From positions 1 through 43,290 of the IMG/VR virus record IMGVR_UViG_3300036715_001927: a DNA stretch of 43,290 nt. One strand, 5' to 3'. The notes beneath the pieces are model-generated. The model saw only the letters and a program-made list of their open reading frames with translations. It was not told where the DNA came from and did not search any database. The DNA is from a virus. The stretch's first letter is position 1. Every line of letters begins with the position of its first letter. Position numbers and translations under genes: made by a program. Of this stretch, positions 9,969 to 43,290 are shown piece after piece.

Positions 9969-10475
9969 ATGGCTGAGAAAAGTGATGATTTTATATTAAC
10001 CACAGAGCTGGTTGATGATATAATACTTAGAGAAAATTTAGGTAAAAAATTAACAAGATATGAGAAACTTTGGTTTCAAAATATGCATGGAATTCGTAAA
10101 GCAAATTTAACATTCGCTCTTACAAACAATGAATTTGAAGAATATATAAAATGTAAAATAAATATACACTATTTTGCTGAAAAGTATTGTCAAATTAAAA
10201 GAGAAGATGGTACAATCGGACCAATGAAGCTTCGTGATTATCAGAAAGATATTATTGACTTATATACTAAGAATCCAAGAAGTATACTAATGGCTTCGAG
10301 GCAAACAGGTAAATGTCTGGCTTTCAACACATTAGCTAATGTTGAGAAAGATGGTGATATTATAAAAATTCCTATTGGTTTGTTATATTATGATGCGTTA
10401 AAGAAAGAAAAAAATCTTACAATTTTAGAAAAAATAAAGATATTTTTATATAAAATTTTAAGTAAACTATCTTAA
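9969..10475 (+). CDS. Terminase large subunit N-terminal part fused to intein N-fragment
   Basis: 168 residues. Residues 1-115 are the start of a gp17-type packaging ATPase: MKLRDYQKDIIDLY is followed by the Walker A segment SILMASRQTGK. Right after the Walker A Lys the sequence changes to CLAFNTLANVEKDGDIIKIP, an intein block A with the required Cys1 (residue 116), and stops 53 residues later. The missing remainder of the ATPase is encoded at 12983-15166 behind an intein C-fragment. The protein should associate with that fragment and splice to restore GK-T in the P loop. The split falls between intein blocks A and B, an atypical position known from TerL inteins such as AceL-TerL. Start ATG 9969 follows an A-rich leader. 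Confidence 0.85.
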   Translation: MAEKSDDFILTTELVDDIILRENLGKKLTRYEKLWFQNMHGIRKANLTFALTNNEFEEYIKCKINIHYFAEKYCQIKREDGTIGPMKLRDYQKDIIDLYTKNPRSILMASRQTGKCLAFNTLANVEKDGDIIKIPIGLLYYDALKKEKNLTILEKIKIFLYKILSKLS

Positions 10476-12132: not shown

Positions 12133-12993
12133 ATGATTAAAGAAAAAGAAATAAGCGTAAATATAATATCAAGAAATATTAGATATTATGTGGATAGAGG
12201 ATATGATTGTAAAGTCGGTGACACAATAACAATAAAAATAGAAGATGCTGCATATAATTCACATGCAAGAATAACTGCTATTTGTGATGTATGCGGGCAT
12301 TAATCTAATATAACTATTCAAAAATATAATAAAAACTATAAAAATTGTAGTATTTATACATGTTGACTATCTTCAACAAAATAAAGATATTTTAGAAAAA
12401 TCTAATAATACAAATTTGATAAAATATGGATTTAAAATACCTGCACAGAATTTATTAGTTAAGATGAATTGTAAGGCAAAAAGCATATCAAAATTTGTTA
12501 AAGAAAATGAATTGTTTGAATTTATACGAGAAAATTATAAAGGTGAAATAATTGAAAAAGATAGAAAATTTTATCATGTAAGGAACTCGATGTTTATCTT
12601 CAAGATTTAAATTTAGCTTTTTAGTATAATGTGTATTATACTGGCATAGTAATTTTTATAAAGATGATGATTATCACTTAAATAAAAAATTACAATTGTT
12701 CAATTAAAAATATACAGTTGGTTTACATTTGGTAAGATTCTTGGTTGTGTGATAAAGATGCCACTAAAAATGTTATTCTAAATTTGATAACCGATGCTGA
12801 AGATGTTATTGAAATAAGTTCATCGCATATTTCTGAAAATTTTAGTAAAAAATATAATATAATAAATATAGAAGATTCAAAAAAATGGAATATTTCTAAT
12901 GTTAAAAGAATAGAATTTGATACTAATAGTGATAAGCCATACTTTTGTGATTGTGGTATAATAAAAATAAAAAAGAAAAATTGTGATATTTAA
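12133..12993 (+). pseudogene. Second decayed homing endonuclease (PD-(D/E)XK type)
   Basis: The ATG at 12133 opens a 56-codon piece (IRYYVDRGYDCKVGD, then ARITAICDVCGH, half of a zinc ribbon) ended by TAA at 12301. Later pieces in shifting frames read NLIKYGFKIPAQN (the 'leKYGvknpaQ' repeat of this endonuclease class) and FIRENYKGEIIEKDRKFY. Next come ELDVYLQDLNLAF, a stop, YWHSNFYKDDDYHLNKK, and finally WLCDKDATKNVILNLI up to 12993. The series ELDxYL...FEYNGLYWHS is the nuclease core of large phage homing endonucleases. The many stops and frameshifts show it is dead. With the element upstream it makes two endonuclease invasions of one terminase gene. Confidence 0.65.
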
Positions 12994-15166
12994 AGACTTT
13001 ATAAAAAATATAATATATTTCTTAATTCAATTAATTGAAAAATATGAATTTAGAAATTTTAATCCGAATGAAGATGATATAATGAAGAAATTTGTTAATA
13101 CAATATTTCTTGAAAATGATTTATATGTTGAAACTGATTATGGTGTTGTTCCAGTTACTGAAATTAATATTACTCAACCTTTTCAACGATATAAGTTACA
13201 ATTAGAAAACGGAGTTTGGCTTGAAGGCGCAGATACACATATTGTTTTTTGTAAAGATTATGAACCAAAAATGATGATAGATTTGACCACAAATGATTTT
13301 GTTATCACAAAATATGGTTTGAGCAGAGTTAAGTTTATTAAAAAAGAATATGGTAAAGTCAGTATGTTTGACTTATCTATAGACACACCAGAGATGAGTT
13401 ATTATACAAATGATATATTATCTCACAATACAGTTTCAGCAGCAATAGTTATCTTGCATTTTGTTTTATTTAATGATGATAAAGGTTGTATGATTGTTGC
13501 CAATAAAGGTAAAACCGTTAAAGAAATTATCAGAAAAATCAAAGATATCTATAAATTAGTTCCATTCTTCCTTAAAAAGGGTGTTACAAACTGGAATGAA
13601 ACGCAAATTGCGTTTGAAAATAACTCAAGAATTCAAACAGAAAATAGAACGAAGGATCCAAGTATCGGTTTTACGATTGATTTGTTATATCTCGATGAGT
13701 TCGCACACATACCTGAAAATTATGCCAGAGACTACTATGGTGCGATTGTTCCAGTTGTATCGTCTATTAGCAATTCACGAATTATAATAACTTCAACTCC
13801 AATGGGCTATAATATGTTCTGGGAACTTATAACTGCTGCAGAACTTCCAGATGATGATCCAAATAAGAATCCATATAAGGCTATGCGTGTATACTGGAAT
13901 CAGGTTCCAGGTAGAGAAGATACAACTATAAAGATTTTAGAGAATAAACTTAAAAAATATGGCTTAGTAAAAGCATATGTTTTGAAAACTATTAGAGAAA
14001 ATTATGGCATAACACTTTATAAAAAACATGTTGGTGATGATATTATAGATTGTGTAAAATATGATGTTCAAGATGAAAAAACATATATTGATAATATAAG
14101 AAAGATAAGAATTAATGGTATTCCTTTACCAGAATTGTCAGTTGTTACAAATTGGCAAGAAGAAGAAACCAAACTTTTATTGTCGGCAGATAAATTTGAT
14201 CAAGAGTATGGACTACACTTTGTTACAGGCGATAAGATTTTATTTAACAAGGAAACAATTGATTTGTTGAGAAGTAATCAAATTCCTTTTGATTATATTG
14301 ATATTCCTCAGTTTAAAAAATTAAGTATGCCGTATGATTCTTTGAAGTTCGTAAGAGATATAAATCTATTTAATCTAAATAGAGTAAAGGATTATTATAT
14401 AATGATATCTATTGATTTATCTGAAGGTTTAGCTAAGGATTATTCTGTTATAAATATATTTAAAGTGGTGCTTAGAGATAAAAAAGAAATAGAAAAACTA
14501 CAACTTGATAATTTGTATGATTTGTTTAAAATTGAACAAATCGGTCTATTTAGAAATAATTTATATTCTATTAGAGAAGTTGCTCATATATTATATATGA
14601 TTGCTTTTGAGTTGTTTGATCCAGAAAAAGTTAAAGTCGTTCTTGAATATAATACTTATGGTGCTGAATTTTTAGCACATCTTCCTAATGTGTTTGATGG
14701 TAATAATCAATATTCTAATGCGATTTTTTTAAGATTTAAACATGCAAAAGAAGATATTATTGGTAAGATTGGATTAAGATTAAGTAAAGATAAACACTTA
14801 ATAATTGATAAGGATTTTCAGCAGGCTATAAGAAATAAAAAAATGATTCTACATAGTGATATTAATATAAATGAAATAACAACATTTAGTAAACACGAAA
14901 CTACATCTGGTGCGATATCATATAAAGCTGAGAGTGGAAATGACGATGTTGTTATGTCAACTATTACTCTATCTACTTGCTTTGACAATATCGGTTATAA
15001 GAATCTATTGAATATGATGGTAAACAATGATTTAAAAGGTGATGCGCTAAGATATGTAGAAAATATTACCAGTATATCAAATGGTGGTGGAGGTGTCGCT
15101 GGTGCGTATAGTAAAGTATATAGAAGAAGACCTGATTACTATAGTAATAGATATCCTGGTAGATAA
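12983..15166 (+). CDS. Intein C-fragment fused to terminase large subunit C-terminal part
   Basis: The frame opens with GTG 12983; an ATG at 13082 (residue 34) is an equally good start. The intein part ends at residue 149 with blocks that can be seen in order: GADTHIVF (block B His), SMFDLSIDTPEMSYYTNDIL (block F) and SHN (block G), followed by Thr150 as +1 residue. The C-extein resumes the P loop as TVSAAIVILHF. It continues with Walker B LLYLDEFAHIP (Asp238, Glu239), coupling motif ITSTPMGYN, and the nuclease acids Asp478 (SIDLSEGL), Glu555 (VLEYNTYG) and Asp654/655 (SGNDDVV), as in T4 gp17. Joined to the 115-residue N-extein the product is about 693 residues, a normal size. ATPase and nuclease activities drive and cut packaged DNA. 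Confidence 0.9.
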   Translation: MIFKDFIKNIIYFLIQLIEKYEFRNFNPNEDDIMKKFVNTIFLENDLYVETDYGVVPVTEINITQPFQRYKLQLENGVWLEGADTHIVFCKDYEPKMMIDLTTNDFVITKYGLSRVKFIKKEYGKVSMFDLSIDTPEMSYYTNDILSHNTVSAAIVILHFVLFNDDKGCMIVANKGKTVKEIIRKIKDIYKLVPFFLKKGVTNWNETQIAFENNSRIQTENRTKDPSIGFTIDLLYLDEFAHIPENYARDYYGAIVPVVSSISNSRIIITSTPMGYNMFWELITAAELPDDDPNKNPYKAMRVYWNQVPGREDTTIKILENKLKKYGLVKAYVLKTIRENYGITLYKKHVGDDIIDCVKYDVQDEKTYIDNIRKIRINGIPLPELSVVTNWQEEETKLLLSADKFDQEYGLHFVTGDKILFNKETIDLLRSNQIPFDYIDIPQFKKLSMPYDSLKFVRDINLFNLNRVKDYYIMISIDLSEGLAKDYSVINIFKVVLRDKKEIEKLQLDNLYDLFKIEQIGLFRNNLYSIREVAHILYMIAFELFDPEKVKVVLEYNTYGAEFLAHLPNVFDGNNQYSNAIFLRFKHAKEDIIGKIGLRLSKDKHLIIDKDFQQAIRNKKMILHSDININEITTFSKHETTSGAISYKAESGNDDVVMSTITLSTCFDNIGYKNLLNMMVNNDLKGDALRYVENITSISNGGGGVAGAYSKVYRRRPDYYSNRYPGR

Positions 15167-16286: not shown

Positions 16287-16979
16287 ATGAAGAAAAAATT
16301 AGTAATACTTAGTGGTGCAGGATTGGATGCTGAAAGTGACGTTTCAACTTTTCGTGATCAAAATGGACTTTGGGAGAATCACAGAGTAGAAGATGTAGCT
16401 AGTTATGATGGTTGGATTAGAAATAGAAAAATAGTTTTAGATTTCTATAATGCTAGGCATAAACAACTTAATGAAGTTAAGCCAAACGATGCACATTATA
16501 CATTCGCAGAACTTGAAAAAGACTTTGATGTGTATCATATAACTCAAAATGTCTCAGATTTGCTTGAAAGAGCAGGATGCACAAACATTACACATCTACA
16601 TGGTGAACTAACAAAAATGCGTTCTTGTAATGACGATAACGAGATATATGATTGGCCGAGTGATTTTGTTATTGAGGCGCACACTATGGCAAAGGATGGT
16701 TCAGCAATGAGACCTCATATTGTTTGGTTTGGTGAAGATGTTCCGAAACTTTATGATGCTATGAATATTGTTAAATCTGCTGATATATTAGTTATCATTG
16801 GAACTTCAATGCAAGTTTATCCAGCAGCAAGTTTAATAGATTATGTGAAGTCTGAAGATGTTCCAATTTATATTATAAATCCAACAGAAAACAATTATTT
16901 TGGATGGAGAAAAGTAAAATATATTAAAGATGTTGCTACAAAAGGAACTAAAAAATTGCAGAAGATGTTATTGAAATGA
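16287..16979 (+). CDS. Sir2-family NAD-dependent deacylase (CobB-like)
   Basis: 230 residues, the size of bacterial CobB. Seen in order: the NAD-binding ILSGAGLDAESDVSTFRD (residues ~7-24), GLWENHRVEDVAS, TQNVSDLLERAG (residues ~90-101), the catalytic His in THLHGEL (~residue 110), HIVWFGEDVP and IGTSMQVYPAASL. Known Sir2 enzymes use NAD+ to remove acyl groups from lysines, releasing nicotinamide and acyl-ADP-ribose. Two deviations are visible: the usual NVDxL is NVSDL, and the Gly of AESG is Asp. Only one Cys of the zinc site region (RSC) is apparent. It forms an operon with the clamp-like gene and ends 1-2 bases before a terminator hairpin. Confidence 0.85.
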   Translation: MKKKLVILSGAGLDAESDVSTFRDQNGLWENHRVEDVASYDGWIRNRKIVLDFYNARHKQLNEVKPNDAHYTFAELEKDFDVYHITQNVSDLLERAGCTNITHLHGELTKMRSCNDDNEIYDWPSDFVIEAHTMAKDGSAMRPHIVWFGEDVPKLYDAMNIVKSADILVIIGTSMQVYPAASLIDYVKSEDVPIYIINPTENNYFGWRKVKYIKDVATKGTKKLQKMLLK

Positions 16980-19472: not shown

Positions 19473-19545
19473 TGCGCCAGGCGAGACTCAAACTCGCAAC
19501 CTTTTCCTTAAGAGGGAACAGCTCCATCAATTAAGCTACAAGCGC
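19473..19545 (-). tRNA. tRNA-Lys(CTT)
   Basis: Acceptor GCGCTTG pairs with CTGGCGC; T arm GCGAG TTTGAGT CTCGC is perfect; the anticodon loop CTCTTAA gives CTT. CCA is not encoded. Its 5' end overlaps the last ten bases of the LAGLIDADG endonuclease gene. Confidence 0.85.
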
Positions 19546-20330
19546 ATTTTGTTTAATCTACATAATCTGATGGTTATAGATTTTTTTGTTCTTTTTAAAT
19601 ATTCTACAGAATCAGTTAAATCATGTTCAATAATATAATTATCTTCATCTTCAGTCCATTTTCTTCTTTCAAAATCTATTTTTTTAACATTATCTGGTCT
19701 TAGCCATGCTTTTATTTTTTGTGCATTACTATTTTTTCTATTAATAGATATACAACCATTATAGTATATTGAACTAATTATTTTCTGGGCGTTTTCATTA
19801 GTTACCATTATGTTGTATAGTTTATCTCTTTTGTTTCTATTTAATATTTTTTTGTAACCTATAATATTACTTAAAAAATCAACATATTGCTCAGCTAATA
19901 TTTCAGAACATGTAACTAAAGATATGAAAGGTAGTCCTTTTTTAGTGAAGCCTAATGAACCATCACCATCAATTACACCTCTCCAATAATCGACTTCAAT
20001 AATATCGTCTGGTTTTTGAATTATTAAAGATTTTTTACCAGAAGGAATATACTTTATAAATTCATTTCTGGTGTCCAAATCATATATAGTTAAAGATGAT
20101 GTCTTAGAAATGTAGTTATTACCTTTTATTTCTATATCTCTAGTTCTATCTTTTATTGAAAAATTACAATCAAAATGTTTTGAAATGTCATATAAGATGT
20201 TATTATCACTTGTGTTTATCTCTATTGATAATCTACCTTTGTTTTTACCGTGTTCATATAGATTACCATCTGTTTGTAGTAATCCGATAATATATGCGTG
20301 AGCTTTATTGTTTAAAATATCAAGTTTCAT
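19536..20330 (-). CDS. Free-standing LAGLIDADG homing endonuclease
   Basis: 264 residues with both catalytic helices of a monomeric LAGLIDADG enzyme: AYIIGLLQTDGNLYE (residues ~13-27) and YWRGVIDGDGSLGF (~115-128), each ending in the Asp that binds metal. The C-terminal 55 residues (KWTEDEDNYIIEHDLTDSVE, then KRTKKSITIRLCRLNK) look like a Myb/SANT-type DNA-binding unit. It would cut a 14-20+ bp site and spread by repair. It stands alone between rtcB and tRNA-Lys. Its stop TAG lies inside the tRNA gene, and its start lies in the arm of a large hairpin (20314-20401), which probably restrains translation. A TTTATATATA-like promoter lies in the hairpin loop. Confidence 0.9.
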   Translation of the reverse strand: MKLDILNNKAHAYIIGLLQTDGNLYEHGKNKGRLSIEINTSDNNILYDISKHFDCNFSIKDRTRDIEIKGNNYISKTSSLTIYDLDTRNEFIKYIPSGKKSLIIQKPDDIIEVDYWRGVIDGDGSLGFTKKGLPFISLVTCSEILAEQYVDFLSNIIGYKKILNRNKRDKLYNIMVTNENAQKIISSIYYNGCISINRKNSNAQKIKAWLRPDNVKKIDFERRKWTEDEDNYIIEHDLTDSVEYLKRTKKSITIRLCRLNKMRL

Positions 20331-20401
20331 AATGTATTTTATTTGTATATATAAAAATACACTTTGTTGAAAAAATACATTTTATTGAAACTTGATATTT
20401 T
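20314..20401 (-). promoter_or_regulatory. Hairpin burying the endonuclease start codon
   Basis: On the minus strand AAAATATCAAGTTTCA (16 bases after the rtcB stop region) pairs perfectly with TGAAACTTGATATTTT, which covers the ATG of the endonuclease. After a small bulge a further 10 bp (AATGTATTTT / AAAATACATT) pair. The loop holds TTTTTATATATAC, a promoter-like string. In a read-through rtcB transcript the start would be hidden; in a short transcript started in the loop the 5' arm is missing and the start is free. This is the logic known for T4 homing endonuclease genes; inference here. Confidence 0.6.
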
Positions 20402-21795
20402 TACATTCTTTTCATCTTTCTGTAAGACATTTCATCTCTTTCTCTACGAAGATTTTCATCTTTTTTCTTTTTTGCCTTTCTATCTTTCCAAGATTCACCT
20501 TCAGACTTATCCTTGATGTTTAATATTGGCTTGATTCTATCAAGAATTGTAACAGTAGGCTCAATCATAGTTTCAATCATCTTTGAGTTTTTATATGCAA
20601 ATGGTGATTCATCAATTGTTGATTTGCAAACAGAAGTTGAATATATATCCTTCATAACTCTCTTAAAGTCATCCAAGCTAACTGATTCCTTAGCTTTACC
20701 TCTGGACATCAATCTACCTGAACCATGCGGTGCAGTATTATTCCAGTCTTCATTGCTTTTTCCTTCACATAACAATATTCCATCTCTCATATTGAAAGGT
20801 ATAATCATTTTTTCACCAATATATGATGAGATTGCACCTTTTCTGATAATAAAGTCTTTAAAGTCAATATAATTATGTATAGAGTGAACTTCTTCATCAA
20901 AGTTCTTGATGTTTAATGCCTTTTTTATCAATGATAAAATAGTTTGTCTATTCCACAATGCATATTGCTGAGCAAATATCATATCAAAAATATAATTTAT
21001 CAAGTTTTCACCTTCTAAATATTCTGGATTGATATTTAGACTGTATCTTTCTCTTAAATCCTTTATTTTCTTAGATATTTCAGACTTTGGTGTAGTGTTT
21101 TCAACAATTTCTCTCATTTCTGATTTGAAATCTTCAGTTTCAACAAATACTTTGCCTCTTGCAACATTTATCCAATATTCAGCAATCTTTAATCCGAAGT
21201 TTCTTGAACCAGTGTGAATAGTCAACCAATAGTTTGAAGAATTTTCAGATTTGCCAACTTCTATGAAATGATTACCACCACCTAGTGTGCCAATAGCTGA
21301 ATAGAACTTTTTAGTGTACATTCCAACTTGAGTTAACTTATTAGTTAACCATTCTTCGTTGTATATTGGTGCAACATACGAAGTTTTGAATTTTTGGTTA
21401 TACTTTTCAACAAAAGAGTTTGCTATTTCTTGTACATCTCCGAATGGAATTTCATGAAATCTGATACTTTCTTGTAAATTCATTCCCATAGGAACTTTTT
21501 CACGAATTTTGATGTCTAATTTTTCTAAATCCATTGAAGTTTGGTTAGAAAAGCTTGCTGACAACATGCCACATCCCACATCAACTCAGATCATGTTAGG
21601 ATTAAGAAAATTACCTAATTCCATTGAAAATCCGATAACGCTTCCTTTGCCAACATGCGTATCTGGCATAATTCTAACCTTTAATCCTGATGATGTTTCA
21701 GAATCTAATGTGTGCATTATTTGTTCTACAACACCTTCTTCAACTTCATCTATAAAGATTTTTGCATCTGCGTGTTTTCCTTTTAACTCTATCAT
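20401..21795 (-). pseudogene. rtcB: RtcB RNA ligase gene interrupted by an in-frame TGA
   Basis: The first 69 codons (ATG 21795) give MIELKGKHADAKIFIDEVEE and IMPDTHVGKGSVIGFSM. A TGA at 21586-21588 follows, and the same frame resumes as VDVGCGMLSASF. In RtcB this place reads GVDIGCGM, so the stop replaces the Gly codon GGA by one base. The rest is canonical: LGGGNHFIEVG, HTGSRNFG, NRQTILSLI, HNYID, PHGSGRLMSRGKAKE with the GMP-accepting His region, and an unusual Lys/Arg-rich tail. RtcB joins 2',3'-cyclic phosphate RNA ends with 5'-OH ends in tRNA repair. As written the product is split into 69 and about 392 residues (GTG restart). Nonsense mutation, read-through or sequence error are all possible. 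Confidence 0.85.
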
Positions 21796-21957: not shown

Positions 21958-22239
21958 TTAATATTTTGCATCTAACATATCAATAATTGAATATGGTGAA
22001 ACCCCAATTCCAGAATATGTGATGTTATCAAATCCATTTTCCTTTGTTATTAAGCTTTCGCTTTCACTAATAGCACCAGAATATTTATCATATCCTTTCT
22101 TATGTTCAATATTTCCAGTACCTGGATTATAAGAACCCCAATCTGCCGCTCTTGTGCTTCCAATCGGCTCAACATAATATGTTTTACCTGTTCTAAGCGA
22201 TTTAACCATAAATCTACCCGTCTCGTCACGATTTGTCAT
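21958..22239 (-). CDS. Unknown small protein
   Basis: 93 residues: MTNRDETGRFMVKSLRTGKT, then YYVEPIGSTRAADWGSYNPG and GNIEHKKGYDKYSGAI. The 'TGRFMVKSLRTGKTYYVEPI' part looks like a compact beta hairpin as in nucleic-acid- or ligand-binding small proteins. No family is recognised. The frame stays open about 13 codons upstream of the ATG (NDFNKRF), so the true start may be non-ATG or lost. It lies between tRNA-Tyr and the rtcB promoter and is probably co-transcribed with the tRNA cluster. Confidence 0.5.
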   Translation of the reverse strand: MTNRDETGRFMVKSLRTGKTYYVEPIGSTRAADWGSYNPGTGNIEHKKGYDKYSGAISESESLITKENGFDNITYSGIGVSPYSIIDMLDAKY

Positions 22240-22311
22240 AAACCGTTTGTTGAAATCATTTGTCTTTACCCCATTTTTATTTATTATTTTTTATTTAACT
22301 ATTATTAGTTG

Positions 22312-22385
22312 TGTGTACAATCGGATTTTAACCGATGCTGAGAGATTTACAATCTATAGTACTTAACCGCTAACACTATGTACAC
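22312..22385 (-). tRNA. tRNA-Tyr(GTA)
   Basis: Acceptor GTGTACA / TGTACAC and T arm ATCGG TTAAAAT CCGAT are perfect. The loop TTGTAAA gives anticodon GTA. The variable region is short for a bacterial tRNA-Tyr, which normally has a long arm. Six bases downstream of the HisRS-like gene. Confidence 0.75.
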
Positions 22386-22391
22386 CATATA

Positions 22392-22850
22392 TCATTTTAT
22401 CTTGATAAATTCATCATTCTTAATCGCTTTGTTGATATATCTCATTAAAGTGATAGAATTAGATGGATTGATTATTTCAACTCCAAGTTGTGTGAACTCT
22501 CTGTATCTTCCAGCCTGTGGCTTTTCTCCACGAAAACATTCAGCTACATAAAACAAAAAAACATCTTTTTTATTTCTAAAAGATGTTTTTGCTAATTTCT
22601 GAATAACCGCCGTATATTCTGGCGCTAAACATAAATCTCGTTCACCTCTATCTTTAAAATTGTACATCATGTTGTTGTTCTCAACACCAACCTTACCAGC
22701 AAATAAATCCTGATGTTGGATTATATGTATTTGAATTTCATTGAAGTTGCTATTTATTAGTACTTCAATCATGCTGTTTAGCATTTCTCTCTTCTCATTT
22801 CCAACCAAAATCCTGGTTCCTTTGTAACATGTTTCTTTAATCTCTTTCAT
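22392..22850 (-). CDS. Truncated histidyl-tRNA synthetase-like protein
   Basis: 152 residues covering only the front half of a class II HisRS catalytic core. Seen: HQDLFAGKVGVENNNMMYNF (residues ~46-65; HisRS 'tELF..kvGe.tdi..keMYtF'), RDLCLAPEYTAVIQKL (HisRS 'LtLRPEgTA') and motif 2 as FRGEKPQAGRYREFTQLGVE (~residues 110-130; HisRS 'FRhErPQkGRyRqFhQ.g.E'). Motif 3, the HisA-type histidine loop and the anticodon domain are missing. RPEGT is changed to APEYT. Full activation of histidine is therefore doubtful. The gene ends next to tRNA-Tyr and starts 18 bases after tRNA-His, so a role in binding, repairing or protecting tRNA-His is a reasonable guess. Confidence 0.75.
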   Translation of the reverse strand: MKEIKETCYKGTRILVGNEKREMLNSMIEVLINSNFNEIQIHIIQHQDLFAGKVGVENNNMMYNFKDRGERDLCLAPEYTAVIQKLAKTSFRNKKDVFLFYVAECFRGEKPQAGRYREFTQLGVEIINPSNSITLMRYINKAIKNDEFIKIK

Positions 22851-22868
22851 AACTTTTAATTTTGTTTG

Positions 22869-22942
22869 GGTGTAAGGTCGGTTTCGATCCGACTACCTCT
22901 TGAATCACAGTCAAGCACTCTCCCGATTGAGCTACAAACACC
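22869..22942 (-). tRNA. tRNA-His(GTG)
   Basis: Anticodon arm CTTGA CTGTGAT TCAAG gives GTG; T arm GTCGG ATCGAAA CCGAC is perfect. An extra G at position -1 can face C73, the identity pair of tRNA-His. The acceptor has two T-T mismatches (positions 5 and 6), which is unusual. Lies 18 bases before the HisRS-like gene. Confidence 0.8.
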
Positions 22943-22971
22943 ATATAAAATGCTCATTTTTAGAACATTAG

Positions 22972-23062
22972 CGGAAAATTCGGGGCTCGAACCCAAACAC
23001 CGATTTAACTCGATGAACAGTTTAGCAAACTGCGCCAATACCAATTATGGACTTAATTTTCC
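22972..23062 (-). tRNA. tRNA-Ser(GCT)
   Basis: 91 bases with a long variable arm as in type II tRNAs. Acceptor GGAAAAT / ATTTTCC is perfect; T arm ends in GGTTCGAGCCC; the loop TTGCTAA gives GCT. Confidence 0.85.
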
Positions 23063-29137: not shown

Positions 29138-29581
29138 TTATCTATATTTTTCTAAATCTCTATCAGTATCTCGTTTAATGTCTCTCTCTTTTAAGTCTGA
29201 TTTTTTGTCGTACAATTTTTTACCTTTTGCGATACAGATTGTAACTTTACACAAACCTTTATCATTGATAAACATATTTTTAGGTATGAGAGTAAATCCT
29301 TTTTCTGTTATTTTCTTACGAATTTTTTTAAGTTCTGCTTTTTTAAGTAATAGTTTTCTTGGACGTTTAGGCTCGTGATTTAATCTATTACCAAATTCGT
29401 ATTCTGATATGTGTGTGTTCAATAGAAAAAGTTCATCACCAGTAAAAGCACAGTGACTATCTACTAAAGTAGCTTTACCTAATCTGATAGATTTAATCTC
29501 TGTACCCAGAAGTACGATTCCAGCTATGTACTCGGCTTCTAACGTGTATTCGTGTGAAGCCTTTTTATTTTTTATTATCAT
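29138..29581 (-). CDS. smpB: SsrA-binding protein SmpB
   Basis: 147 residues from the ATG at 29581 (a TTG eight codons earlier lies in the promoter region and is not preferred). Family marks in order: NKKASHEYTLEAEYIAGIVL, GTEIKSIRLGKATLVDSHCA, the conserved HISEYEFGN, NHEPKRPRKLLLKKAEL and the tail AKGKKLYDKKSDLKERD. SmpB binds tmRNA and guides it to stalled ribosomes for trans-translation. The long basic C-terminal tail that enters the mRNA channel is present. No tmRNA gene was recognised in the window, so the protein either uses host tmRNA, a phage tmRNA elsewhere, or has a changed role. Confidence 0.9.
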   Translation of the reverse strand: MIIKNKKASHEYTLEAEYIAGIVLLGTEIKSIRLGKATLVDSHCAFTGDELFLLNTHISEYEFGNRLNHEPKRPRKLLLKKAELKKIRKKITEKGFTLIPKNMFINDKGLCKVTICIAKGKKLYDKKSDLKERDIKRDTDRDLEKYR

Positions 29582-29647
29582 ATCATATTTATGTTTAATG
29601 TACAAAGTAACGAAAAAAAAATCAACTACACAAGTAATAGTTGAAAT

Positions 29648-34340: not shown

Positions 34341-34375
34341 AAAAAAAGAGAAGATTTACTCTTCTCTTTTAATTT
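34341..34375. terminator. Rho-independent terminator
   Basis: Arms AAAAGAGAAGA (34344-34354) and TCTTCTCTTTT (34360-34370) pair perfectly around TTTAC. It follows the stop of the secreted Tyr/Asn-rich gene and precedes the methyltransferase. Confidence 0.8.
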
Positions 34376-35226
34376 TATCTTCTTGAACCTCCGCCTGGTG
34401 TGAGTGTTCTAATATTATTGTTATTATTTGATGAAGGTGGTGTATATGTGCTTATAGGTGTATTATTTTGATTAGGCGTATACGTTTTTCGTGGTGTGCT
34501 GTTTTCGTTAGGTGTATATGTACTTCTATGTTGAATAGTTGTTTTAGTTTCATAGTTGTTCCTAGATTGAGCAGTTGTTATAGGCGTATATGTGTTTCTT
34601 GGCTGAATAGTTGTTCTAGTTTCAGTGTTTGTTCTTGGATTTATAATAGTTCTAGGTGTATGATTATTTCTAGAATTGTCATCTATTACCACTGGTCTCT
34701 GAATTGTTGAATTTCTATATGTTGAATTTCTTCTATAATTGTGATTTTGATAGTCATTATAATGCTTGTAATGATTGTGATGATTAAAATTATATATTGA
34801 ATTATAATTCCAATTATAGTAATTCCAATTATAGTAGTAATTGTTATAATTCCAATTATAGTAATTCCAATTATAGTAGTAATTGTTATAATTCCAATTA
34901 TAGTAATTCAAATTATTGTAATAATTATAATATGATGTATATGAATAATAATCATATGATAAACTATTATAATACCAATCATTATAATAATCAAAACTTG
35001 TTAAGTAAAATAAATGTCTTGGATTGTGAAATCTATTGATTCTACTTGTGAATATATATTCAGTGTCATAAATTGTATCACTGCTGTAATTGTAATTTGT
35101 GTCTATCTTTGTCTCTATTTTTTGTTTTTTACTTGGTTTGAAATAAATATCATCCGTGATAACATTTTGTGCAAAAAATGAAAGACTGCTTAGTACGAAT
35201 ACTAATAATAAATATAACTTTTTCAT
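34375..35226 (-). CDS. Secreted Tyr/Asn/Trp-rich repeat protein
   Basis: 283 residues with a clear signal peptide (MKKLYLLLVFVLSSLSFFAQ, cleavage likely after SFFA or FAQ). Residues ~75-155 are almost only Tyr, Asn and Trp, built on a 14-residue repeat of the type YNWNYYNWNYNNYY. A Thr/Arg/Pro/Asn-rich tail follows (TETRTTIQPRNTYTP and similar, repeated about five times) and ends in LTPGGGSRR. This looks like a host-derived exported low-complexity protein, perhaps surface-associated. A signal peptide ending in '-FFAQ' is typical of Bacteroidota. A role in changing the surface of infected cells is conjecture. Confidence 0.65.
   Translation of the reverse strand: MKKLYLLLVFVLSSLSFFAQNVITDDIYFKPSKKQKIETKIDTNYNYSSDTIYDTEYIFTSRINRFHNPRHLFYLTSFDYYNDWYYNSLSYDYYSYTSYYNYYNNLNYYNWNYNNYYYNWNYYNWNYNNYYYNWNYYNWNYNSIYNFNHHNHYKHYNDYQNHNYRRNSTYRNSTIQRPVVIDDNSRNNHTPRTIINPRTNTETRTTIQPRNTYTPITTAQSRNNYETKTTIQHRSTYTPNENSTPRKTYTPNQNNTPISTYTPPSSNNNNNIRTLTPGGGSRR
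34804..34912 (-). repeat. 42-bp tandem repeat in the Tyr/Asn-rich gene
   Basis: The unit begins at 34804, 34846 and 34888 (two full copies and a partial third) and is identical between copies. Each 42-bp unit is itself made of a 15-bp and a 27-bp part sharing AATTCCAATTATAGT. Confidence 0.85.
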
Positions 35227-42692: not shown

Positions 42693-42837
42693 TATCATAA
42701 ATGAAACAGAAGATGATATTATTTCTGATATAATAAAGATATGTTACGATATAAATACATTAGACAATAACAGCTCATTTTTGTATAGAAAACTATGGAA
42801 AGTTTCTATAAAAAATTTTAGGAAGCCAACAGAGTGA
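42670..42837 (+). CDS. Short ORF, probably a gene truncated by the transposon
   Basis: The ATG at 42670 overlaps the primase end. The 55 codons start MIKIKKYNIINETEDDIISD, then IIKICYDINTLDNNSSFLYR, and finish in KNFRKPTE where the frame runs into the end of the TnpB element (from about 42818). The body is protein-like, so a phage gene of this T4-like replication block was probably cut here by the insertion. Confidence 0.45.
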   Translation: MIKIKKYNIINETEDDIISDIIKICYDINTLDNNSSFLYRKLWKVSIKNFRKPTE

Positions 42838-43290
42838 CTTTCCTTGGGTTAACTGCAAACCCTCTATTCCCTTCATTAAATTCAGGAACTACTTTCTTAA
42901 AGATGTTTAATGATCCATTGATATCTGCATTAATTTTGAATCCATCTTTTGTTTTAAATAAACCTCTTTTCACCCTTTTACCAAGGTAATTTTCGTGATA
43001 TTTCATGGCTTCATTATCGAAGTATGAACATTTACTTGTGTAAGATTCTTCAGTCAAAGTGATATTTATTCCTTTCAGCCTTGCTTTATACGTTAAGGTA
43101 TTAATTAGTTCAAGGTATGGTATTTGAATAAACTTTTGATTGTTTACTTTACTCATTTTACAATCGTCCTTCCATTCTTTATTGTATCCAACAATAATTT
43201 CTGATACATTGTGAATTTCACACCATTTCACAAGAGTTTTTGTGATTTTGTGAACTTCACATTTTATCTTACTGTTTCTTTTTTCGGTCA
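42818..43290 (-). CDS. tnpB: TnpB (IS200/IS605 family), N-terminal part outside the window
   Basis: The frame is open to the right edge, so only the C-terminal ~157 residues are seen. EIIVGYNKEWKDDCKMSKVN and IPYLELINTLTYKARLKGIN are the RuvC-like part. TEESYTSKCSYFDNEAMKYH, then GKRVKRGLFKTKDGFKINAD and INGSLNIFKK, give the zinc ribbon region (only the first Cys pair is reduced: KCSYFD) and the final catalytic Asp in NADINGSLN. TnpB is an RNA-guided DNA nuclease that helps retain its element. The guide RNA would be encoded at this 3' end, across about 42700-42900. Confidence 0.8.
   Translation of the reverse strand, partial: TEKRNSKIKCEVHKITKTLVKWCEIHNVSEIIVGYNKEWKDDCKMSKVNNQKFIQIPYLELINTLTYKARLKGINITLTEESYTSKCSYFDNEAMKYHENYLGKRVKRGLFKTKDGFKINADINGSLNIFKKVVPEFNEGNRGFAVNPRKVTLLAS

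Follow-up and report, generated by a model that had tools for sequence, protein, structure and literature searches.

Results

A HisRS-like reading frame in a phage tRNA cluster

The window analyzed here is a 43,290-nucleotide virus fragment (IMG/VR record IMGVR_UViG_3300036715_001927). Within a cluster of tRNA genes on one strand, between tRNA-His and tRNA-Tyr, lies an open reading frame (ORF) of 152 codons (Table 1). Judged by its sequence, its relation to histidyl-tRNA synthetase (HisRS) is beyond doubt: profile searches matched it to TIGR00442 (hisS; E=1.7e-27, 96.5 bits) and Pfam tRNA-synt_His (E=3.8e-12), and its best solved relative is S. aureus HisRS (1qe0, residues 20-137, E=1.6e-15). 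The TIGR00442 score is below the equivalog cut-off of 286.75 bits.

The initial annotation had described the whole ORF as half of a HisRS. The ORF and its kinship to HisRS were confirmed, but the HisRS-like sequence stops at residue 131, and residues 132-152 form the end of a gene unrelated to it. The HisRS-like part carries the motif 1 region, an E83/T85-type loop reading APEYT, and motif 2. In motif 2, FRGEKPQAGRYREFTQLGVE aligns to E. coli HisRS R113-E131 with R113, Q118, R121, R123, Q127 and E131 as aligned positions, so that the ATP-binding arginine and the C73-reading loop are kept. As the initial annotation had also reported, the ORF lacks HisA, motif 3 and the anticodon domain, and neither the HisA loop RGLDYY nor the motif 3 arginine was found in any of the six frames of the window. 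A search of every frame of the 43-kb record did not reveal a second HisRS half either. Readthrough of the TGA that ends the ORF was considered and ruled out; the residues beyond it show no HisA sequence.

Table 1. Features of the HisRS-like locus, in window coordinates
Feature	Position	Strand	Remarks
HisRS-like ORF, 152 aa (152 codons)	22392-22850	(-)	open, in frame
Mini-HisRS N-terminal part, ORF residues 1-131	22458..22850	(-)	66-76% identity; TIGR00442
Codon 42 CAT (His), position of the motif-1 proline	22725..22727	(-)	P42H relative to intact relatives
Motif 2 strands and loop, intact: LFYVAECFRGEKPQAGRYREFTQLGVEII	22470..22562	(-)	alignment to E. coli HisRS
8-base stretch AATCCATC at the joint	22462..22469	(-)	common to both gene partners
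ORF residues 132-152 and stop	22392..22457	(-)	3' end of an unrelated small gene, PHROG 20427-like
tRNA-His (GTG)	22868-22941	(-)	17 bases upstream of the ORF; G-1 and C73 kept
tRNA-Tyr (GTA)	22311-22385	(-)	6 bases past the ORF stop; tRNA-His at this place in L097
tRNA-Ser (GCT)	22971..23062	(-)	left edge of collinearity with L097
93-aa ORF	21958..22239	(-)	right edge of collinearity; L097 match 96% identical

The ORF joins the front of a mini-HisRS to the tail of an unrelated gene

A close relative of the window, L097, is collinear with it on both flanks of the HisRS-like segment, with 94% identity over tRNA-Ser and the 5' part of tRNA-His and 81% from the ORF tail to the 93-aa ORF. In L097, the interval between tRNA-His and the 93-aa ORF contains an independent ORF of 77 aa and another tRNA-His. 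The last 21 codons and stop of the window ORF match the end of this 77-aa ORF (L097:2701-2766) at 62 of 66 bases and 20 of 21 residues, while identity over the 60 bases directly upstream of the tail falls to chance level (19/60), showing that residues 132-152 are foreign. Elsewhere the 77-aa ORF is a stand-alone gene (52.6% identity over 76 aa in L056; PHROG 20427) with relatives in Prevotella Lak phages, Tunturi_5 and others. The window ORF is a chimera, with a mini-HisRS front, the tail of an unrelated gene and a sharp joint between them. Across the joint the window reads ATCAATCCATCTAATTCTATCACTT and L097 reads TATAAATCCATCACTT; the shared AATCCATC is a possible microhomology, suggestive only.

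Genes of the 77-aa family (PHROG 20427, with ...MRYIxKAI...) were also noted at L097:2533-2763, L034:5704-5802 and L090:5417-5638. The family adjoins tRNA-His and a mini-HisRS in several large phages and may share a function in tRNA clusters.

Intact relatives form a family of mini-HisRS genes

Two viral scans recovered 62 loci of the family on about 60 viral contigs, several of them longer than 400 kb; members from the phage collection are in LR756502 (642 kb), LR745206 (635 kb) and the isolated Sinorhizobium phage Phosso (469 kb). Most are a single ORF of about 180-220 aa with the motif 1 proline, motif 2, RGLxYY (HisA), GGGxY and the motif 3 GxDR, and over residues 1-131/148 the window ORF is 66-76% identical to such intact relatives. 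Exceptions are L053/L096 (one contig), which is frameshifted, L052, which lacks residues 11-66, L051, which is truncated at the edge of its contig, L074 and L079, whose reported match starts ahead of a stop, and L092/L093, in which RGLxYY is degenerate. HisRS profile positions ~150-231 and 320-406 were missing in 17/17 family records searched, gaps that correspond to the HisRS insertion domain and anticodon-binding domain. Three intact relatives scored 142-152 bits against TIGR00442, again below the cut-off, and no full-length HisRS exceeded it elsewhere in the family-bearing phages (0/17 records).

By alignment, E83, T85, R113, Q118, R121, R123, Q127, E131, R259, Y263/Y264, E270 and R311 of E. 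coli HisRS are each matched by the same residue in the family; R287 has no such match. Catalytic roles of the residues are in part taken from PMC8558854. The AlphaFold model of an intact member, L005 (pLDDT 83.4, pTM 0.81), gave E. coli HisRS (1kmn) as its best PDB match in Foldseek (E=1.2e-14, TM 0.81 by query), and the intact family is predicted to adopt the HisRS catalytic fold. The structure comparison that the initial annotation had proposed thus points to HisRS for the intact protein but gives a poor model for the window ORF (pLDDT 70.5, pTM 0.61, mean 52-58 over residues 41-80).

Replacement of RPEGT by APEYT, which the initial annotation had reported for the window gene, is present but belongs to its clade, whose intact relatives have A/S-PEYT. 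Nor is the half form conserved: L097 does not have it, and since the complete relatives are mini-enzymes that possess both HisA and motif 3, only the window copy is halved. A pattern scan of cellular genome contigs found no cellular copies, although the patterns were specific to one clade and the test is a weak one. Both the intact mini-HisRS family and the loss of the motif-1 proline (His at residue 42) are additions to the initial annotation.

Some variation within the family was also noted. Several members of the Phosso clade (L072-L082) lack the N-terminal KGTRIL segment in the ORF and are about 180-190 aa long. A subclade made up of L016, L045/L058, L048, L049, L015 and L050 has ENTQ or ENSQ (mostly with GRW/GRF) in the motif 2 loop instead of EKPQ, and some of its phages carry a tRNA-His with A73; covariation of motif 2 with base 73 is possible, and the counts are mixed.

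Mini-HisRS genes are linked to tRNA-His

tRNA-His lies within 6 kb of the mini-HisRS at 20 of the 24 loci that have nearby tRNAs. It is a flanking tRNA at 10/24 loci, against a within-locus shuffle mean of 4.65 (p=0.005), and no tRNA lies closer at 8/24 (shuffle mean 2.8, p=0.0025). These p values are optimistic because the loci, treated as independent, are related to one another and had been selected for the presence of tRNAs. Spacing is below 20 bases in the window, L034, L075, L077, L080 and L088, and a close tRNA-His is upstream of the mini-HisRS in some loci and downstream in others. At many family loci, no tRNA lies within 6-8 kb, and in some sampled tRNA-bearing stretches of the family no tRNA-His was found. 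The expectation that the pairing of a HisRS-like gene with tRNA-His would recur was thus borne out in other large phages, in varied arrangements and above the within-locus shuffle.

The tRNA-His directly upstream of the window ORF does have the two T-T mismatches reported initially, as U-U at 5:68 and 6:67. In a set of 43 tRNA-His genes (41 from phages, not all of them family-bearing records, and two bacterial), G-1 is present in 37 and C73 in 32. At least 7 of the 43 carry the U-U tandem, in five phages and two Bacteroidota MAGs, these mismatch counts being lower bounds; a single U6-U67 occurs in further Bacteroidales genomes. Because the tandem occurs in other phages and in Bacteroidota, it is no evidence of the co-adaptation with the window protein that had been proposed.

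The window copy shows signs of recent loss

The class II motif-1 proline, P42, is invariant across a 30-sequence alignment of intact relatives and is His42 in the window. A comparison of 20 intact copies gave 45 invariant columns, of which the window N-terminal part keeps 43, departing at two (P42H and K92R). Its mean pN of 0.212 falls in the range of the intact copies (0.188-0.238). P42H and truncation combined with this ordinary non-synonymous distance suggest that the loss is recent and that the window copy spent most of its history as an intact enzyme. With HisA, motif 3 and the motif-1 proline all missing, the protein probably has no activity; the neighboring tRNA-His would presumably be charged by the host (or another) HisRS. 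As the ORF is open, in frame and keeps 43 of the 45 invariant positions, it may also have recently gained a new role. The only other record with both the 93-aa gene and a family match, G021/L053, has a broken mini-HisRS too.

Discussion

Origin of the window ORF and alternative functions

The window ORF is best read as a remnant of recent recombination, in which a segment with tRNA-His and the first 131 mini-HisRS codons would have replaced the matching tRNA-His and the first 56 codons of the small neighbor gene. The left crossover would fall within the tRNA-His gene or close to it, and the right joint would have been illegitimate and in frame by chance, leaving a product of 131 HisRS-like and 21 foreign residues; we infer this order of crossovers at the window locus. 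The exact joint (residue 131/132) had no match in the other viral contigs searched, so the fusion rests on one assembly, and that record is a fragment. Even so, a chimeric joint made during assembly is unlikely, since the joint is in frame and L097 is collinear on both flanks, such that an artefact would require two false joins. Taken together, we think it likely that the ORF is a recombination remnant, probably inactive, derived from an intact HisRS family that works through the acceptor end only.

The window protein could instead be a natural urzyme, retained because it weakly activates histidine and charges tRNA-His. For engineered HisRS fragments limited to motifs 1-2, histidine activation and tRNA acylation have been reported, and the window protein resembles the 122-residue motif 1+2 urzyme in content (PMC4082485), keeps equivalents of E83, T85, R113, R121, Q127 and E131, and adjoins a tRNA-His with G-1:C73. 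We consider this quite unlikely: the motif-1 proline is lost, the tail is foreign and the model is of low confidence over residues 41-80, all of which make residual activity unlikely, and the form is absent from the closest relative L097 and was found in no other phage. Very unlikely, too, is the combined view that large phages carry the smallest known natural acceptor-only HisRS and that the window copy is a still-active, fused, urzyme-like form of it. HisRS dimerizes through motif 1, and with its retained first half, motif 2 and adjacent tRNA-His the window protein might have acquired a non-catalytic role as a tRNA-His chaperone or as an inhibitor forming heterodimers with host HisRS. However, the altered position is the very motif-1 proline of the dimer interface, the relatives keep a full active site rather than a half, and the tail is an accidental fusion, so we give this role very little credence. 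A HisZ-like regulator of histidine synthesis is the most improbable of all and almost certainly not the answer. The window does have weak similarity to the HisZ profile TIGR00443 (64 bits), but the hisS profile scores higher, and HisZ does not carry out adenylation (PMC9437257), while active-site residues are retained in the intact phage family. HisG (TIGR00070), detected in 13/14 control genomes, was not found over cut-off in 20 family-bearing records, which makes a HisZ role unlikely. The idea of a dedicated half-HisRS, whether chaperone, HisZ-like regulator or inhibitor, is therefore not supported, given the chimeric structure, the lost proline, the poor model and the failure to find HisG.

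A putative acceptor-only enzyme and its known counterparts

The intact mini-HisRS family, present in many giant phages and often near tRNA-His, is a more interesting find than the half. By its conserved residues, the intact enzyme would activate histidine in a standard class II active site and would recognize G-1:C73 of tRNA-His via motif 2, without anticodon contacts. HisRS charges minihelices and microhelices through G-1:C73, which suffices (PMC9976931), and this would explain how the anticodon domain can be dispensable. The family thus probably needs only the acceptor end to charge tRNA-His, although we infer the charging itself.

The phage genes share with bacterial HisRS (hisS) motif 2, the histidine-binding residues and the tRNA-His linkage, and the intact relatives also share HisA, motif 3 and the predicted catalytic-domain fold. 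Bacterial HisRS has ~420 aa and the phage family about 180-220 aa, without the insertion and anticodon domains; in RPEGT, R81 is A or S and G84 is Y in the window's clade, and the window copy additionally lacks HisA, motif 3 and the motif-1 proline. The engineered HisRS urzymes and Ncat (PMC4082485) are likewise reduced forms, resembling the window copy in having motifs 1-2 and the phage family in having a core without insertion and anticodon domains. However, the urzymes contain motif 1+2(+3) and lack HisA, whereas the phage family keeps HisA and consists of natural genes with their own conserved sequence. One intact member, Phosso XYS97181.1 (196 aa), is already annotated 'histidyl-tRNA synthetase'; it lies 275 bases after tRNA-His, shares 41-45% identity and, unlike the window copy, has motif 3 and HisA intact.

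HisZ is also a HisRS paralogue without an anticodon domain, and differs from the phage family in its lower profile score, the absence of detected HisG and the active-site residues that the family retains. Fold matches in BFVD (E 4e-5 to 1e-8) included K7QJG2 of Escherichia phage phAPEC8 (190 aa) and A0A6J5M2P2 (222 aa), small class II synthetase-like proteins that, compared by fold match, are similar in size and fold at 10-15% identity. The second best fold family was MmaPylRS, a class II PylRS without the N-terminal domain (~275 aa), which is larger and serves another amino acid and tRNA.

tRNA synthetases encoded by huge phages are already known (PMC7162821), and in the mostly open literature covered we found no description of a phage HisRS pared down to the catalytic core. 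Should the intact members charge tRNA-His, they would represent minimal class II synthetases of natural origin, would offer a direct test of the urzyme idea, so far based on engineered fragments, and could serve as compact tools for tRNA engineering. The window copy is mainly a warning that an in-frame fusion can be mistaken for a half-enzyme with a purpose; it also suggests that tRNA genes serve as sites of recombination in phage tRNA clusters.

Other features of the window

Between the 93-aa ORF and a tRNA-Lys(ctt) lie an RtcB RNA ligase gene (20401-21795, (-)) and a LAGLIDADG ORF (19536-20330), neither of which is at this place in L097. At 21586-21588, a codon that encodes Gly in the family, the RtcB gene is interrupted by an in-frame TGA (NPNMI-stop-VDVGCGM), which could be a nonsense mutation, a sequencing error or a site of readthrough. 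The large terminase (9969-10475 and 12983-15166, (+)) seems to be divided within the ATP-binding loop, where the two parts have ends resembling those of an intein (RQTGK/CLAFN... and ...LSHN/TVSAA, the slash marking the break), with ~2.5 kb and other ORFs between the parts; this arrangement is a possible split intein or fractured gene, and the only Pfam match was Terminase_6N, on the second part. The window also encodes the C-terminal part of a TnpB/Cas12f-like protein (42818-43231, (-); PF07282, 2.4e-10), a SIR2-family protein (16287-16979, (+); 3.6e-38) and SmpB (29138-29605, (-); 1.9e-53). A secreted-looking Tyr/Asn-rich repeat protein (34375-35226, (-)) starts with MKKLYLLLVFVLSSLSFFAQ, which is typical of Bacteroidota and hints at such a host.
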